Positions 390 through 23,779 of a stretch of DNA of 53,886 nt are shown piece after piece. The stretch lies in contig JAUNSU010000015.1 in the NCBI GenBank assembly GCA_030539035.1, positions 1 through 53,886 on the forward strand, written 5' to 3'. The position numbers and the translations under genes were made by a program. Each line of letters opens with the position of its first letter. The first letter of the stretch is position 1. Source of the DNA: Planctomycetia bacterium. Its GTDB lineage: Bacteria; Planctomycetota; Planctomycetia; Pirellulales; Thermoguttaceae. The notes under the pieces are model-generated. The model was not told the origin of the DNA. It did no database searches and saw nothing but the letters and a program-made list of their open reading frames with translations.

Positions 390-1577
390 TTAATACATTA
401 TTTTCAGGCGGGCAAAACCGGCAGCGCCGGGTTTAAATTCCGAATGAAGGTTCAAATCACTGTTGTTGACCTTTAAATGCCGATCAAAAACCACTCCTCC
501 TTCCAGCGCCCAATTCAAATCTGTGAGTGATTTTCTTTCGATTCCGCCGAAAATGCGGACATCATAGTAAGAAAAGGTTGTATTTTTGGAATAGGCAATA
601 TTGTTTTTGGTCTGAACATTCCATTTATCGGTTTCGTATTCCCCTGCGAGGTAGATCCAGTAGGGAGCATCGGATCGGGAATGAGTATGAATGCAATCCG
701 GTAATTTCCACGCGATTTTCGGACGGGGAAATAAAAGTTCCAGCATGAGATCATCGCTCGGCTTCAAAAGCAGACCGGCGATGGGGACAAGATGAAAATC
801 GCTCACATCGTTGTAGGAAAGGCCAAGAACCAGTCGAGAACGATCTCCCAACCGCCAAATTGCGGATCCGTATCCAATGATTCGCAGTGCTTCCGACGTA
901 TTCGCATGGAAATCCGAAGACCAGAGAACATCAAGATTAAAGTCCATAAGCAGGGAATCATTGACGGGAACAAGATATTCCATCGACAGGCCCGTCGAAA
1001 TGAGTGAGAGTTTATCATCGAAATAATTTTGCAGTTTATTGGGAATATGGAATTCCGTCCATTGACAAACCGGGGACAAAAGCATGGGAGTATCGAGAGA
1101 AGGACAGGGAAATCCGAATGTCGCCGCCCCTTCGATTTGATACATCCCGGACCGGACATCCCGTTTGTCGGCAAGATAAGAAAAATCGACAGCTGCTCCT
1201 TGAAAGAAGGAGTTCCGGAACGGACGGGGCTCCAGCATAAAGTGTGAAAGCCGGCTCTCCGAGGTGATGGGAGAATCATTCTCCAAGCTCCACCGCTCGT
1301 CGACTCCCCCTTTTCCTGTTGGAGGAACGGTATTATAAGTAAATACGGCGGCTGTTTCCGGGATTACCGTCTCTTTTCCGACAGGCGGCACCGGATTGGA
1401 GGTTTTGGGCTTGGAATATCCTAAAAAACCATAATTTCGAGGGGGCGTATAGGTCGGACTTTGATAGAAGGAAGATCCCCCTTCCGCGAATACGGATCCG
1501 CTCAGAATCAGAAAAAGACTCAGTCCCAGGATGAATGGGAAAAAGCGTCTTTCTTTTAAAGGAATCTTTTCGGACAT
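390..1577 (-). CDS. Secreted beta-barrel envelope protein (DUF6268-like)
   Basis: The 395-residue product begins with a signal peptide (basic start, hydrophobic core to about residue 29, likely cleavage after VFA at 31). A Pro-rich stretch follows, then a long region of alternating hydrophobic and polar residues typical of outer-membrane beta strands. It ends in an aromatic residue (LKIMY), as outer-membrane barrels usually do. The neighbour at 1667-3034 shares the layout and a conserved segment (here LLLKPSDDLMLELLFP, there VIWKPNDTNVWRLVFP), so the two are paralogues. The family assignment to DUF6268 is from memory of planctomycete proteins. Role unknown, perhaps an outer-membrane structural protein or pore. 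Confidence 0.6.
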   Translation of the reverse strand: MSEKIPLKERRFFPFILGLSLFLILSGSVFAEGGSSFYQSPTYTPPRNYGFLGYSKPKTSNPVPPVGKETVIPETAAVFTYNTVPPTGKGGVDERWSLENDSPITSESRLSHFMLEPRPFRNSFFQGAAVDFSYLADKRDVRSGMYQIEGAATFGFPCPSLDTPMLLSPVCQWTEFHIPNKLQNYFDDKLSLISTGLSMEYLVPVNDSLLMDFNLDVLWSSDFHANTSEALRIIGYGSAIWRLGDRSRLVLGLSYNDVSDFHLVPIAGLLLKPSDDLMLELLFPRPKIAWKLPDCIHTHSRSDAPYWIYLAGEYETDKWNVQTKNNIAYSKNTTFSYYDVRIFGGIERKSLTDLNWALEGGVVFDRHLKVNNSDLNLHSEFKPGAAGFARLKIMY

Positions 1578-1666
1578 TTTCGATCTGCGGGATGGGGTTA
1601 AATTTTACCAGGGATCCGAACAGGAACCGGATCCTTTTTTTTATCAGCGGGAAACAAATCATTCTT

Positions 1667-3034
1667 CTAATAATTCAGGCCCACTTTGAGATAAACGCTT
1701 GTTTTCGGCTTATAAAGGGTCGTTCCGTAAGCATACAGTTCGCGGCCGAAAGCGCCTCCGACTTCAAAATTTCCGGTAAATCCGGTGCGGGTCTGGAAAG
1801 AGGCGCCAACTCCGACTCGATAATCATTATAATCGATATTGAATGATTCCCGCGGCTGTTCAACATACCATCGCCCCCCGCCGATATTTCCCTGAATATG
1901 TCCCCACCAATCGGTTTCGTTGACCTTTCCCAAATGCCGGGAAAGCCGGGGATCCGGAAAAACGAGCCGCCAAACGTTGGTGTCGTTCGGTTTCCAGATC
2001 ACTCCGCCGGAGGGAAGGAGTTTGTAATGATTGCGATTGTAGTAGATCGCTCCCAATGTTGCCGCAAAACGGCCGTCTCCGGTAATACCCAGGGTCCCCA
2101 TCGCTCGCCCGCGAAGATAAAAACTTTTTGAGGCGACCTTTTTGAATGAGGAGGCAAGTCCAAGTCTGATCCAGGCCTCTACTCCGAAATCTCTTGTAAA
2201 CTGGGAATCAATTCCAAAGTCGACTCCGGCGTCGAAGGTTTGCTTGGGCATCGCGATTGCGCCGGGCAAACCTTGTGCGGGATCATTCCAGAGTTCCAAA
2301 GAAAAATTCGGGGCGATGAAGAACGATCCGCCAGTTCCGCCTTCTGTCGATGGGGGTAAAAGCGAACAGGGAATCATGAAACGGGAATAGAGATCAAACT
2401 CATGGAGTCCAAGTCCGGAATCTTTAGATCCTTTGGGGATAAAAGTATATTCCGCGGAGATCTTACTGCAAAATCGCACAAACTTGTTGACAGGTTCCGT
2501 GTATCCGGTCGGACAGGTGTTTCCTGTCGTTGTGGGATTCATTGCGATCGATCCTGTCGTTCCTGTTGAGGTTGTGATCGGAGGAGCAACAGAAGACGCC
2601 GGAGGGGTGTAAATAGGACTTCCGCCCGCTCCCTGAATCACCGGAGCCGTCGAAGCCGCTGTATTGGCCTGAGCGATAAAGGTTGGACTGTTCTGATAAA
2701 CCGTATTCCAGTAGTTCGACGATTGACCTCGTATGATCGCCGGAGAATAGACCTCTTCCGAAAGATAAAGACCAAGATCCGAATAGGCGTATCCCGCCTC
2801 GGTATCCGATATTTTATTGAAAAGCAGGATATTGGGATCATTTTCTTCCGTTCCTGATATTTCTTCTTCTCCCATTGTACATGATATTGGGAAAATAAGG
2901 AAAAATATAAAAAACGACAGAGGAAGTCCGCACCGAATCCAGAAATTCAGTGTTTCCCTATTCTTTCGGATTATTCCGGAAAAATTTTTTGAAAGAAAAG
3001 ATCCGATTTTATTTTGAAAATCGATATCACGCAT
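1667..3034 (-). CDS. Secreted beta-barrel envelope protein, paralogue of the preceding one
   Basis: The 455-residue product has a basic N-terminus and a hydrophobic segment at about residues 35-50 ending in PISC, which could be a signal peptide or a poor lipobox (Pro at -3 is unusual). The middle (about 110-165) is rich in Thr, Ala, Pro and Gly and looks disordered. The C-terminal 270 residues alternate like a beta barrel and end in YLKVGLNY. The ATG at 3034 is supported by a GAGG 8 bases upstream. The gene lies 90 bases from its paralogue at 390-1577, in the same direction and probably co-transcribed. Role unknown. Confidence 0.6.
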   Translation of the reverse strand: MRDIDFQNKIGSFLSKNFSGIIRKNRETLNFWIRCGLPLSFFIFFLIFPISCTMGEEEISGTEENDPNILLFNKISDTEAGYAYSDLGLYLSEEVYSPAIIRGQSSNYWNTVYQNSPTFIAQANTAASTAPVIQGAGGSPIYTPPASSVAPPITTSTGTTGSIAMNPTTTGNTCPTGYTEPVNKFVRFCSKISAEYTFIPKGSKDSGLGLHEFDLYSRFMIPCSLLPPSTEGGTGGSFFIAPNFSLELWNDPAQGLPGAIAMPKQTFDAGVDFGIDSQFTRDFGVEAWIRLGLASSFKKVASKSFYLRGRAMGTLGITGDGRFAATLGAIYYNRNHYKLLPSGGVIWKPNDTNVWRLVFPDPRLSRHLGKVNETDWWGHIQGNIGGGRWYVEQPRESFNIDYNDYRVGVGASFQTRTGFTGNFEVGGAFGRELYAYGTTLYKPKTSVYLKVGLNY

Positions 3035-3064
3035 AAATTAACCTCAAATATCCTGCTTGTCCTG

Positions 3065-18051: not shown

Positions 18052-19776
18052 TCAGACCAGCGGTTTTCTCTGATCGTAATTCGTGTGCAGGAGTTCGTGC
18101 GATTTGTGTCCGTTCGGTTCGCCCAGATATTCCGAATAAAGCCGGTTGACTTCTTCGTTTTTGTGGGAGACGCGGAGTTCGTCCGCAGCGTCGATATTGT
18201 AAAGCGACTGCATACGGGCCTTGACCAGATCACGGTTCGTTCCGTAAGGCTGTCCGCCGCCGCCGACACATCCGCCGGGACAGGTCATCACTTCAATGAA
18301 CTGAATATCTTTTCGCTCGCCGGATTTGATCTGTTCGAGCAGTTTGCGCGCATTGCCAAGTCCATTGACAACGGCAACACCGACATTCAGACCGTTAATA
18401 TCAAGATGGGCTTCTTTCGCACCGTCGATTCCGCGAACGGCTTCGATCTTGAGTTCGGCCAGTTCCTTTCCGGTGAGAAGGAAGAAAGCGCTTCGAACAG
18501 CCGCTTCCATTACTCCTCCGGAGGCGCCGAAGAGTTTACCGGCGGAACTTCGTTCTCCGAACGGAGAATCGGCCGGCTCCGGAGACAAATTCTTAAGATC
18601 CAGTCCATACATGCGAATCAGCTGGGCAAGTTCGCGCGTGGTGAGAACGGCATCGACATCTTTGTATCCGTCCCGTCCCATCTCCGGACGATCCGCTTCG
18701 AACTTCTTCGCGGTGCAGGGCATGATCGATACGCTGAAGATCTTTTTCGGGTCCAGATTGTTCTTTTCCGCGTAAAAAGTTTTGATCACAGCGCCGAGCA
18801 TCTGCTGCGGGCTCTTGCAGGTGGAAAGATTCGGCATGAATTCCGGGTAAAATGTTTCCACGAACTTGATCCATCCGGGAGAGCAGCTTGTGAACATCGG
18901 AAGAACGCCGCCGGTCTTGATTCGATTGACCAGTTCGGTTCCTTCTTCCATAATGGTAAGGTCGGCACTGAAGCTGGTATCGAAAACTTTGGCGAATCCG
19001 AGTTTGCGCATTGCGGCGTGCATTACGCCCATCGCATCGGTTCCGGCGGGAATTCCGAACTCTTCACCGATGGAGACGGAGACCGCCGGCGCGTGCTGAA
19101 CGACAACGTGCAGATCCGAATTCTTAAGGGCGTCGATCACTTTTTGAACCTGGCTGTTCGCAACCAAAGCACCGGTCGGGCAGGCGGCAACGCATTGTCC
19201 GCAGTTGACGCAGCTGGAGATATTCATTCCTTCGCCGAAAGAAGTACCGACAACGGTTTTCGATCCGCGGTGAATGAAATCAAGACAGGCGACTGTTTGA
19301 ATTTCTTCGCAAACACGAACGCAGCGTCCGCAGAGAATGCACTTTTCGGCATCGCGGACGATCGACGGACTCGATTTGTCGATCGTATGTTCGCTCTTTT
19401 GGCCCGCATAGCGACGGCTCCGAACACCGAGTTCTTCGGCCTGTTCCTGGAGCAGGCAGTTGCCGTTCCGTTCGCAGTAGAAGCAATCGGCGGGATGATC
19501 GGCGAGCAAAAGTTCGATAATGGTTTTGCGGGCCTGGATCACGCGGTCCGAATGAGTTTTGACTTTCATTCCTTCGAAGACGGGGAACGCACAGCTGGGG
19601 ACAAGAGCCCGCTGCCCTTCGACTTCGACTACACACATGCGGCAGGAACCGCTCGGGACAAGTCCCTCGATATTGCAAAAGGTCGGAATTTTGAATCCGG
19701 CCCGGCGAAGTGCCGCGAGAAGCATCTCGTTCGGTTCCGCCTGAACGGTTTGGCCATTCACTTCAATATTAATCAT
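18052..19776 (-). CDS. hydA: [FeFe]-hydrogenase catalytic subunit of an NAD-linked (HydABC-type) complex
   Basis: This subunit forms H2 from protons at the H-cluster. The 574-residue product has an N-terminal plant-type [2Fe-2S] domain (C34, C45, C48, C62), a His-Cys3 [4Fe-4S] site (H94, C98, C101, C107), two [4Fe-4S] sites (C146-C156 and C189-C199) and the H domain. H-cluster motifs: L1 TSCSPGW (296-302), L2 MPCTAKKFE (352-360), L3 EVMTCPGGCVGGGGQP. In L1 the second Cys of the classic TSCCPGW is Ser; Cys320 in LSTCKSP is a further change. The C-terminal small-subunit part is fused, as usual (HELLHTNY near the end). With HydB and HydC just upstream it fits an enzyme that uses NADH plus reduced ferredoxin. 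HydE/F/G maturases are not in the window. Confidence 0.93.
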   Translation of the reverse strand: MINIEVNGQTVQAEPNEMLLAALRRAGFKIPTFCNIEGLVPSGSCRMCVVEVEGQRALVPSCAFPVFEGMKVKTHSDRVIQARKTIIELLLADHPADCFYCERNGNCLLQEQAEELGVRSRRYAGQKSEHTIDKSSPSIVRDAEKCILCGRCVRVCEEIQTVACLDFIHRGSKTVVGTSFGEGMNISSCVNCGQCVAACPTGALVANSQVQKVIDALKNSDLHVVVQHAPAVSVSIGEEFGIPAGTDAMGVMHAAMRKLGFAKVFDTSFSADLTIMEEGTELVNRIKTGGVLPMFTSCSPGWIKFVETFYPEFMPNLSTCKSPQQMLGAVIKTFYAEKNNLDPKKIFSVSIMPCTAKKFEADRPEMGRDGYKDVDAVLTTRELAQLIRMYGLDLKNLSPEPADSPFGERSSAGKLFGASGGVMEAAVRSAFFLLTGKELAELKIEAVRGIDGAKEAHLDINGLNVGVAVVNGLGNARKLLEQIKSGERKDIQFIEVMTCPGGCVGGGGQPYGTNRDLVKARMQSLYNIDAADELRVSHKNEEVNRLYSEYLGEPNGHKSHELLHTNYDQRKPLV

Positions 19777-19880
19777 CGTTAGTTTTCCTTATACTGGTTC
19801 CACCGGGATTTCCGGAAGCGGAAGCTCCGAAAAAACCGGCTGATTATTGATTATACGATTTTGGCCGTTTTTCGCAGAAC

Positions 19881-19902
19881 AAGGATCACCACAGGGATCC
19901 TT
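19881..19902 (-). other. Hairpin in the hydB-hydA spacer
   Basis: AAGGATC (19881-19887) pairs with GATCCTT (19896-19902). The 177-base spacer between hydB and hydA is long compared with the 30 bases between hydC and hydB. A hairpin here could protect an mRNA end or set the ratio of the subunits; no T run follows. Confidence 0.35.
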
Positions 19903-19953
19903 CGGATATTTCCGGATTTGCGGAAAACGGTACTGCCTGATCTCAGGCGCCAA

Positions 19954-21891
19954 TCAAACTTTTTTGATCGCGTCGAAGCGACACGTATCTGCACAAGCTC
20001 CGCAGCCGACGCATTTGTCCGCGTCGATCACAAAAGGACTCTTGATTGTTCCGGAGATGGCTTGAGCGGGGCATCCCTTGGAGCAGAGAGAACATCCCTT
20101 GCATTTGGCCGGATCAATCTCATATTTGATCAGATCTGTACAGGCTTTGGCCGGACATTTGCGATCGTAAACGTGCGCTTCATATTCATGGCGGAACCAG
20201 CGAAGCGTACTGAGTACAGGATTCGGAGCCGTTTGGCCCAATCCGCAGAGGGAGGTGTCGCGAATGACCTCGGCCAGTTTTTCCAGATGAATAATGCTCT
20301 GGAAACGTTCGAGTGTCTGCTGTTCATTCTCGCTCTTGGCCCCTCGGGTAATACGATGAAGGATTTCGAGCATGCGCCGTGTTCCTTCGCGGCAGGGAGT
20401 GCATTTTCCGCAGCTTTCCCGCTGAATAAAGTCCATGAAGAACTTGGCGACATCGACCATGCAGTTGTCTTCATCCATTACGACGAGTCCGCCGGAGCCC
20501 ATCATGGCGCCAACGGTTTTGAGCGATTCATAGTCGATTTCGATATCGACATGGGATTCGGGAATACATCCGCCGGAAGGTCCTCCGATCTGAACGGCTT
20601 TATAGGCTTTTCCTTTGGCGATTCCGCCGCCGATCTCAAAGATCACATGGCGGAGGGTTGTTCCCATCGCGACTTCAACAAGCCCGGTTCGGGATACTTT
20701 TCCGGAAAGGGCGAAGACCTTCGTTCCTTTGCTTCCCCCGGTTCCAACAGCATTGAACCAGTTGGCGCCTTTGGAGAGAATGCCGGGAACGTTGGCGAGC
20801 GATTCGACGTTGTTGATAATCGTCGGATGCTGGAATAAACCTTTGACAGCCGGGAACGGCGGTCGAGGTCGGGGCATTCCGCGTTTTCCTTCGATACTGT
20901 GGATCAGGGCGGTTTCTTCACCGCAGACGAACGCGCCGGCGCCCATCTTGATCACAAATTCGAGAGAAAAGCCGCTTCCAAGGATATTTTCACCGAGCAG
21001 ATTGTTCGCCTTGGCTTCGGCAATCGCGTATCGCAGACGCTGAATGGCGAGAGGATATTCGGCTCGAATATAGACATAAGCTTTTTGAGCGCCGATCGCA
21101 TAGGCGGCAATGGCCATTCCTTCAAGAAGACGATGCGGATCGCCTTCGATTACGGCGCGGTCCATGAATGCACCCGGGTCGCCTTCATCCGCGTTGCAGA
21201 CGAGATAGCGATGAGTATCTTCCGTTCCATGGGCAAATTTCCATTTTTTACCGGTGGGGAATCCGCCCCCTCCTCGTCCGCGAAGACCGCTTTTTTCGAC
21301 TTCTTCGCAAACTTCGATCGGCTTCATTCCGGTAAGAACCTTCTTGAGGGCAACGTATCCGCCGTGGGCGATATATTCTTCGAGCCGACCCGGGTTGATA
21401 ATTCCGCAGTTGGCGAGAACCCAGCGGGTTTGAGAGGCGAAGAAGGGATGTTCGTCGATGTAGAGAGTATCTTTCCAGGCTTCCTGTCCTTCGACCCGAT
21501 ACTGTCCCATCACGTTTTCCTGAAGGACTTCGCCCTTGAAGATGGCGGAAAGAACTTTTTCCACTTTATCTTCGGTCATTTTTTGGAAGGCGATACGGGT
21601 TTTTCCGGGGAGCTGAACATCGACGATCGGTTCGAGAGCGCAGAGGCCGACGCAGCCGACTTCGACGATTTCGGCGTCGATATTATGATCTTTCACGAAT
21701 TTCTTTACCGCTTCAAGGGTAAAGGCGGCGCCTGCACCAAGTCCGCAGGTTCCGGTTCCGACGTAAATGGCGGGCTTCTCCACTTTTTTTCGTTGGAGAA
21801 CGGCCAGCTTTTCATTCCAGGCCGGATCCGCAGATTCGGTTGAATCAAGCGCCCGCGTCAAAAATTCTTTGTCCAAAGGTTTGATTTGCAT
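19954..21891 (-). CDS. hydB: NAD-binding flavoprotein subunit of the [FeFe]-hydrogenase (NuoF-like)
   Basis: This subunit exchanges electrons between NADH, FMN and iron-sulfur clusters. The 645-residue product has an N-terminal thioredoxin-like ferredoxin module (about 40-125; C49, C80, C84 seen), then the 51-kDa NuoF core: GLRGRGGGGFPTGKKW for FMN/NAD and NADEGDPGAFMDR, followed by GAGAFVCGEETALI, the SLBB region, and SCGKCTPCREGTRRM for a [4Fe-4S] cluster. The C-terminus adds a two-cluster ferredoxin (CKGCSLCSKGCPAQ and CVGCGACADTCRF). That domain order is diagnostic of HydB of bifurcating hydrogenases and related formate dehydrogenase or Hnd subunits. It lies 30 bases after hydC in the same operon. 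Confidence 0.92.
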   Translation of the reverse strand: MQIKPLDKEFLTRALDSTESADPAWNEKLAVLQRKKVEKPAIYVGTGTCGLGAGAAFTLEAVKKFVKDHNIDAEIVEVGCVGLCALEPIVDVQLPGKTRIAFQKMTEDKVEKVLSAIFKGEVLQENVMGQYRVEGQEAWKDTLYIDEHPFFASQTRWVLANCGIINPGRLEEYIAHGGYVALKKVLTGMKPIEVCEEVEKSGLRGRGGGGFPTGKKWKFAHGTEDTHRYLVCNADEGDPGAFMDRAVIEGDPHRLLEGMAIAAYAIGAQKAYVYIRAEYPLAIQRLRYAIAEAKANNLLGENILGSGFSLEFVIKMGAGAFVCGEETALIHSIEGKRGMPRPRPPFPAVKGLFQHPTIINNVESLANVPGILSKGANWFNAVGTGGSKGTKVFALSGKVSRTGLVEVAMGTTLRHVIFEIGGGIAKGKAYKAVQIGGPSGGCIPESHVDIEIDYESLKTVGAMMGSGGLVVMDEDNCMVDVAKFFMDFIQRESCGKCTPCREGTRRMLEILHRITRGAKSENEQQTLERFQSIIHLEKLAEVIRDTSLCGLGQTAPNPVLSTLRWFRHEYEAHVYDRKCPAKACTDLIKYEIDPAKCKGCSLCSKGCPAQAISGTIKSPFVIDADKCVGCGACADTCRFDAIKKV

Positions 21892-21921
21892 TTTTTGAGT
21901 CCTTATAAATAAGAGGGGTGC

Positions 21922-22404
21922 TTATTCCGCCGCTTTACGATACGACTTAATGATCTCCGGGATCTTTTGTGTGGTAAGATTCGCATGAAAATTGCCGGAG
22001 ATGTTCATTACGGGCGCCAATCCGCAGGCACCGATACAGGCGACGATTTCAAGGCTGAAGAGACCGTCCCGGGTGGTTTCGCCGGGAGCGACTTTCAGTT
22101 CCCTCTTGAGGGCTTCGAGTACCGCGGCGGATCCTTTAACATGGCAGGCAGTTCCACGGCAGATCTGTATGTGGTATTTACCCTGCGGAGTGAACCGGAA
22201 TTGATTGTAAAATGTTGCGACACCGTAGATCTTGCTCGTCGGCAATTTGAGAAAATCGCCGACCAATACGACCGCTTCACGGGAGAGATAGCCCTGCTTC
22301 TCCTGGATCTCCTGAAGAATGGGGATAAGGGAATCACGGCCGGCGTTTGGATAGTTTTCCAAAATGGCGCGAATGCCCTCTTCGACTGATACTGTTGTGC
22401 TCAT
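21922..22404 (-). CDS. hydC: Thioredoxin-like [2Fe-2S] subunit of the [FeFe]-hydrogenase (NuoE-like)
   Basis: The 160-residue product is a NuoE/HydC homologue. A four-helix N-terminal part (YPNAGRDSLIPILQEIQEKQ, then VATFYNQF) precedes the thioredoxin-like fold that binds one [2Fe-2S] cluster through Cys82, Cys87, Cys123 and Cys127 (ICRGTACHVKG and VACIGACGLAP). It helps pass electrons from the NAD site in HydB to HydA. First gene of the hydCBA operon; a palindrome about 100 bases upstream might be an operator. Confidence 0.92.
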   Translation of the reverse strand: MSTTVSVEEGIRAILENYPNAGRDSLIPILQEIQEKQGYLSREAVVLVGDFLKLPTSKIYGVATFYNQFRFTPQGKYHIQICRGTACHVKGSAAVLEALKRELKVAPGETTRDGLFSLEIVACIGACGLAPVMNISGNFHANLTTQKIPEIIKSYRKAAE

Positions 22405-23282: not shown

Positions 23283-23339
23283 TATAATTTGGTAAATCAA
23301 TGTTGATTTACTGTTAACACCATCTTTTTCAAAGGAGAG
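23283..23339 (+). promoter_or_regulatory. Proximal -10 box and ribosome-binding site of the Cys-rich gene
   Basis: TATAAT at 23283-23288 lies 56 bases upstream of the ATG but has no good -35 box. AAAGGAGAG at 23331-23339 is a strong ribosome-binding site that fixes the start at 23344. Confidence 0.5.
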
Positions 23340-23343
23340 AATA

Positions 23344-23679
23344 ATGAAAAAGAGTCTGTTTGTTGCGATGTTGGTTGTTTTGGCCGTTTTCATGGCCCAA
23401 AACCTTTTTGCTTCCGATTGCGCTTCCTGTGCCGATGAAGCTGTTGCCGTTGAAACCGCCGTTGCCGCTCCTTGCGCTCCGAGCTGTGATCCGTGTGTCG
23501 TCAGCTGCTGCACTCCGTGCTGCACAAAGTTCTGCTGCAAGCGCCCCTGCATCGTTCGCTGCTGCAAACCTTGCTGTGTTGTTCCTTGCTATAAACCGTG
23601 CGTAGTTCGCTGCTATCGCCCCTGCTATACCAAGTGCTGCTTCCCAGTTTATCGCGCTCGCCGCGTTTGCTGCTGGTGA
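23344..23679 (+). CDS. Small secreted cysteine-rich repeat protein
   Basis: The 111-residue product has a signal peptide (MKKSLFVAML..., likely cleavage after FAS at 24). The mature part of about 87 residues holds 24 cysteines. From about residue 55 on it consists of roughly six tandem units of about eight residues with the pattern xxxC[C/Y]xPC, for example IVRCCKPC, VVPCYKPC, VVRCYRPC and YTKCCFPV. Basic residues and Tyr/Phe fill the gaps. Outside the cytoplasm this could be a disulfide-linked wall or surface protein, which would suit planctomycete envelope proteins rich in cysteine, or it could bind metal. Both are inference. It has its own promoter elements and a strong terminator, so it is a single-gene unit that may be highly expressed. 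Confidence 0.8.
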   Translation: MKKSLFVAMLVVLAVFMAQNLFASDCASCADEAVAVETAVAAPCAPSCDPCVVSCCTPCCTKFCCKRPCIVRCCKPCCVVPCYKPCVVRCYRPCYTKCCFPVYRARRVCCW

Positions 23680-23728
23680 GATCCCAGATAAAATGATCTC
23701 ACAGACCTTTATGTGAGAACATTTCAAT

Positions 23729-23779
23729 AAAAAAGATCTTTCAGATTTCGGGCCTTTCCGATTCTGAAAGATCTTTTTT
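23729..23779. terminator. Strong bidirectional terminator after the Cys-rich gene
   Basis: AAAAAAGATCTTTCAGA (23729-23745) and TCTGAAAGATCTTTTTT (23763-23779) form a perfect 17-base stem ending in T7. It ends the Cys-rich transcript. Confidence 0.85.

Follow-up and report, generated by a model that had tools for sequence, protein, structure and literature searches.

A cysteine- and proline-repeat protein of a planctomycete as a possible disulfide-cross-linked component of the cell envelope

A contig of a Planctomycetia bacterium (GCA_030539035.1, JAUNSU010000015.1; the window is the whole stretch of 53,886 nucleotides that was analysed) contains a short reading frame of unusual composition, which raises the question of whether it is a gene and what a protein so rich in cysteine would do. 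The open reading frame on the (+) strand, at 23344-23679, encodes 111 residues, consisting of a signal peptide and 88 further residues, with 24 cysteines and 10 prolines. The coordinates and the cysteine count given in an earlier note were exact. The synonymous-codon log-likelihood in frame amounts to +25.8 bits over the 111 codons, which fits the genes of the window, with scores of −13.1 and −8.9 for the other two frames of the (+) strand. An antisense frame (23329-23727, (-) strand), an Ala-rich mirror of the Cys codons, scored −39.3 and was ruled out by codon usage. By this measure, the reading frame is a real gene of the (+) strand.

The gene had also been described as well equipped for expression, which agrees with the signals predicted around it (Table 1). 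A Shine-Dalgarno sequence, AAAGGAG, precedes the ATG by 6 nt, and the downstream region contains a putative terminator whose 17-bp stem is accompanied by a short inner stem and a run of T. The 111-nt region including this terminator folds with −39.6 kcal/mol, compared to −18.0 kcal/mol for shuffled sequences (z = −7.2). As it is located between the Cys-rich gene and a convergent UvrD-like helicase gene, and has an A-rich left side and a T-rich right side, the terminator probably serves both genes. In the leader, a TATAAT-like box is followed, ahead of the start codon, by a perfect palindrome, TAAATCAATGTTGATTTA, with an operator or a 5' hairpin as candidate roles. It is present in a single copy genome-wide when up to one mismatch is allowed, and thus gives no sign of a regulon.

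Table 1. Position of the gene, its protein segments and its flanking signals in the window.
Feature	Sequence	Coordinates	Strand	Basis
Palindrome in leader, 8+8	TAAATCAA-TG-TTGATTTA	23293..23310	none	sequence and genome search
Shine-Dalgarno	AAAGGAGAG	23331..23339	+	sequence read
Coding sequence, 111 aa, 24 Cys		23344..23679	+	open reading frame, composition, codon usage
Signal peptide	MKKSLFVAMLVVLAVFMAQNLFA	23344..23412	+	by inspection; cleavage site inferred
Acidic, Ala-rich linker	SDCASCADEAVAVETAVAAP	23413..23472	+	charge calculation
Superunit 1	PCVVSCCTPCCTKFCCKR	23491..23544	+	DNA self-comparison, reference copy
Superunit 2	PCIVRCCKPCCVVPCYK	23545..23595	+	75% identical to superunit 1 over 32 nt
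Superunit 3	PCVVRCYRPCYTKCCFPV	23596..23649	+	66% identical to superunit 1 over 32 nt
CX3CX3CX3CX3CC framework, Cys82-Cys99		23587..23640	+	pattern search; minicollagen CRD definition from PMC4863159
Intrinsic terminator, 17-bp stem		23729..23779	none	folding of region

All 24 cysteines belong to the putative mature chain, which has 88 residues if the precursor is cut after Ala23, a site that was read by eye. More than one quarter of this chain is Cys, and it contains neither Gly nor His. The calculated net charge is around −4.6 for residues 24-46 and around +10 for residues 47-111. The motif C[CY]x(1-2)PC occurs six times, compared to an average of 0.42 over 5000 shuffles, none of which had more than 4. 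The four units CCTPC, CCKPC, CYKPC and CYRPC are exact, the two units CCKRPC and CCVVPC contain a one-residue insertion, and the final unit, CCFPV, is degenerate. The "about six octapeptides" proposed in the earlier note therefore hold as a count of motifs but are loose as a period, since the units are spaced by 8-10 residues. The repeat is better described as a C-x3 tetrapeptide, the next cysteine being preceded by a proline or a basic residue, as Cys pairs of the tail are enriched at distance 4 (C-x3-C, 13 observed versus 6.2 expected) and absent at distance 2 (C-x-C, 0 observed versus 6.3 expected by composition). Over the whole mature chain, there are four C-x-x-C and no C-x-C. The tail comprises three diverged superunits of 17-18 residues, with a DNA spacing of 54 and 51 nt. 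Given the DNA identities of 66-75% to the first superunit and the lack of any tandem array detected at the gene by Tandem Repeats Finder, the repeat is preserved in the protein and diverged in the DNA: it is an old protein repeat and not the product of recent slippage. The predicted structure was uninformative (pLDDT 48), with helices that are not credible.

No match to the protein was found in Pfam (up to E = 10), NCBIfam, PHROGs or the sequences of PDB chains, in keeping with the absence of a recognised family in the earlier note. The gene is present in a single copy in its own genome. By sequence, no ortholog was found in three congeners, 115 other genomes of the same family and about 280 genomes of the same order; on inspection, the weak matches in family and order were other exported proteins, unrelated frames, or Ser/Ala-rich stretches. 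Scans of the genome collection, viral contigs and plasmids likewise yielded no ortholog, with weak compositional matches only. When orthologs were sought by position, both neighbours (HndA-like and helicase) were found in the three congeners, where their neighbourhood is rearranged and the adjoining stretches contain no small Cys-rich gene. Searching the genome collection for the octapeptide pattern with basic spacers returned 23 stretches, 22 of which were discarded as apparent out-of-frame readings of other repeats or for want of a plausible start; the remaining one, a Clostridium Cys-rich protein (L091), was judged analogous. At the present sampling, it is an orphan gene confined to one species. 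Lack of conservation in relatives had been named beforehand as an argument against the proposal, and at the level of orthologs none was indeed found; codon usage and the divergence of the repeats in DNA nevertheless identify a real coding gene.

In sequence searches, Cys/Pro repeats of the same kind recur across predicted exported proteins of the bacterial family. The double motif C[CY]xPCxxxC[CY]xPC was detected in 17 of 119 family genomes, at 22 places compared to 2 for the reversed pattern, and most matches fall in Cys-rich proteins bearing a signal peptide. The matched loci comprise proteins with a TIGR03000 domain, a Cys-rich family of 200 residues in genus g33, a lipoprotein-like protein (L039) and large exported proteins from two congeners (L046, L048). 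The C-terminal TIGR03000 domain was assigned by profile for L043 (7e-17) and by resemblance for the other proteins. Like the orphan protein, the TIGR03000 proteins (L040, L042, L043, L044) combine a signal peptide with a C-x3-C/Pro repeat, and L040 also contains CX3CX3CX3CX3CC. Their own repeat (CYxPC/CYxSC) is N-terminal, however, with Ser/Thr/Tyr in the spacers instead of the basic residues (K/R) of the orphan protein, in which the TIGR03000 domain is not matched. Comparison of the orphan protein with the g33 family and the TIGR03000 proteins gave z values of 5-6 that dropped to 1-2 when C and P were fixed in the shuffles (1.5-2.2 for the TIGR03000 proteins); by these scores, the likeness lies in the positions of C and P only. 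A bare tally of C-x3-C in the order was discarded as useless owing to TGC/TGT simple repeats and many matches of the reversed control, single loci alone being informative. In one congener, a large exported protein (L003, G003:C56) has a Cys-rich mature N-terminus (ECATCGGETDVDLGCTTCGAP...) followed by porin-looking sequence.

Planctomycetes have a wall made of protein, a sacculus that contains disulfide bonds (PMC2754498). YTV proteins, which are cysteine-rich and restricted to Planctomycetales, have been recovered in cell-wall preparations (PMC8567305). In a profile search, YTV proteins (PF07639) were found in four of four genomes of the genus and in none of 14 control genomes; in the genome under study, the profile matched 12 stretches elsewhere than at the gene. 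These wall proteins have features near those of the orphan protein: they are exported, Cys-rich and repetitive, are encoded in the same genome, and some of their C-termini contain short CCxPC-type motifs, such as IRCCVPCMPCAAVPCDPC and INCCRPC. In the same genome, the YTV protein ends with IRCCVPCMPCAAVPCDPCKTTGSCM, and those of two congeners end with INCCRPCIPCQR and VRACVPCCKN. The orphan protein is much shorter and lacks the YTV motif. Its membership of the YTV family was rejected, as PF07639 gave no match up to E = 10, and so was homology at the tail, with z values of −0.9 to 2.7 against full shuffles and all scores within the shuffle range. The YTV gene of the same genome (L137, G000:C75, about 1100-3050) is broken by a 100-N assembly gap, with a Cys-Pro-Cys-rich tail at its end; similar tails are found in congeners (L140, L141).

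The earlier note had favoured a secreted, stand-alone Cys-Pro repeat protein, possibly a disulfide-linked surface protein. The first part is supported, the export signal being read by inspection, and the second appears to be the best fit, since YTV proteins are found in every genome of the genus and related Cys/Pro repeats in exported proteins of the family. That the protein is exported to the cell envelope as a structural element cross-linked by disulfides is given a probability of about one half; its location in the wall, its oxidised state and its partners are inferred. The signal peptide would direct Sec transport across the inner membrane, and the basic Cys/Pro C-terminal region (around +10) would then become part of an intermolecular disulfide network. 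With its regular C-x3-C and a proline every 4 or 8 residues, this region could form a chain of tight turns displaying many cystines. The occurrence of YTV proteins in the genus, the disulfide sacculus (PMC2754498) and the polymerisation of minicollagen CRDs (PMC4863159) suggest that this short protein may cross-link or fill the protein wall or the outer surface, with the YTV proteins of the same cell as possible partners. As no ortholog was found in the other genomes searched, it is not an essential, conserved wall component. Apart from YTV proteins and disulfides, little is known of what holds the planctomycete protein wall together, and a small stand-alone Cys-rich protein, together with a recurrent C-x3-C/Pro design, provides defined candidates for cross-linkers.

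Minicollagen cysteine-rich domains (CRDs), from the cnidarian nematocyst capsule, polymerise by disulfide exchange, or reshuffling, through the framework CX3CX3CX3CX3CC (PMC4863159). Exactly the same Cys framework, with prolines in the spacers, is present in the orphan protein, where Cys78-Cys99 reads (Cx3)5-CC, that is, the framework with one further Cx3 ahead. The framework was spotted after the fact; it arises in 0.06% of shuffles if no extra Cys is tolerated in the spacers and in 1.7% if extra Cys are allowed, and it may be a plain consequence of the C-x3 repeat. Since the collagen Gly-X-Y segment is missing from a mature chain devoid of Gly, and no sequence match was found among PDB chains, the likeness to minicollagen is convergent and not homologous. 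A bolder version of the envelope reading, which we regard as decidedly improbable, is that of a bacterial polydisulfide protein that reached the minicollagen framework independently, is exported soluble and then polymerises by disulfide exchange into the protein wall, as one of many fast-evolving Cys/Pro cross-linkers in the bacterial family. The framework offers a mechanism that is testable on a short peptide.

Oxidation of the thiols is not assured, as VKOR was not found in the genus and the [FeFe] hydrogenase cluster adjoining the gene suggests an anaerobic, fermentative host. This cluster of three genes (18052-22404 of the window, (-) strand) resembles an NADP-reducing [FeFe] hydrogenase, with 2Fe-2S thioredoxin-like, NuoF-like and iron hydrogenase subunits. 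In such a probably anaerobic cell lacking a detectable VKOR, thiols could be kept reduced, and 24 cysteines in 88 residues could form an exported metal binder that stores or scavenges Zn, Cu, Cd or similar ions in the periplasm or at the surface, comparable to a metallothionein outside the cytoplasm. Bacterial metallothioneins of the SmtA type are likewise small and very Cys-rich, but they are not known to be exported by Sec and use C-x-C and His ligands, whereas the orphan protein carries a signal peptide and lacks both C-x-C and His. Its mature chain offers just four C-x-x-C, and its spacers are filled by prolines and aromatics. No metallothionein match was obtained in Pfam (up to E = 10) or NCBIfam, and the annotated neighbours include no metal genes. 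The protein is unlikely to be a metallothionein, the metal store considered in the earlier note is not borne out on these grounds, and an exported metal binder in the wider sense is unlikely too. A small, basic, Cys-rich and exported product confined to one species would also suit a bacteriocin-like or signalling peptide that is secreted for an ecological purpose, or a buffer of thiol redox state. Such a role is very unlikely, however, as no immunity, transporter or modification genes adjoin the gene, no relation to phages or PHROGs was found, and the repeat type is common to long exported proteins of the family.

Another proposal concerns ancestry and is compatible with a role in the wall. 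The protein could belong, as a distant and Cys-enriched member, to a family of short exported proteins found in genus g39 (L061-L077), with Cys having taken the Y/V positions of a surface protein with aromatic Pro repeats; its function would be structural and its disulfides late. A profile finds one match per genome in 17 genomes for this family, whose members combine a signal peptide and an acidic linker with a PC-containing core, a variable number of YxPV repeats and usually a terminal W; two members scanned against Pfam gave no match. The orphan protein is of similar length, has its parts arranged in the same order and likewise ends in W. Its mature chain scored 66 against the member L012, compared to a shuffle mean of 30.9 (z 7.0, or 5.7 with C and P fixed). 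The tail alone gave z values of 3.3-5.2 for eight of nine members when the orphan protein was shuffled, but with scores that stay below or close to the highest shuffle scores. The linkers are of low complexity, and the two kinds of protein come from different genera. As the family profile does not find the orphan protein in its own genome (G000) at E ≤ 0.001, homology to the g39 family stays a suggestion, and descent from it is about as unlikely as the metal binder. Order-wide, other exported proteins (L108, L109, L113, L114, L126, L129) contain 41-78 Cys in 229-292 residues, with CCEPACCEP and CCDPCC repeats, and share an N-terminus resembling MKW..GALV.S...SFG.LD.MLG.
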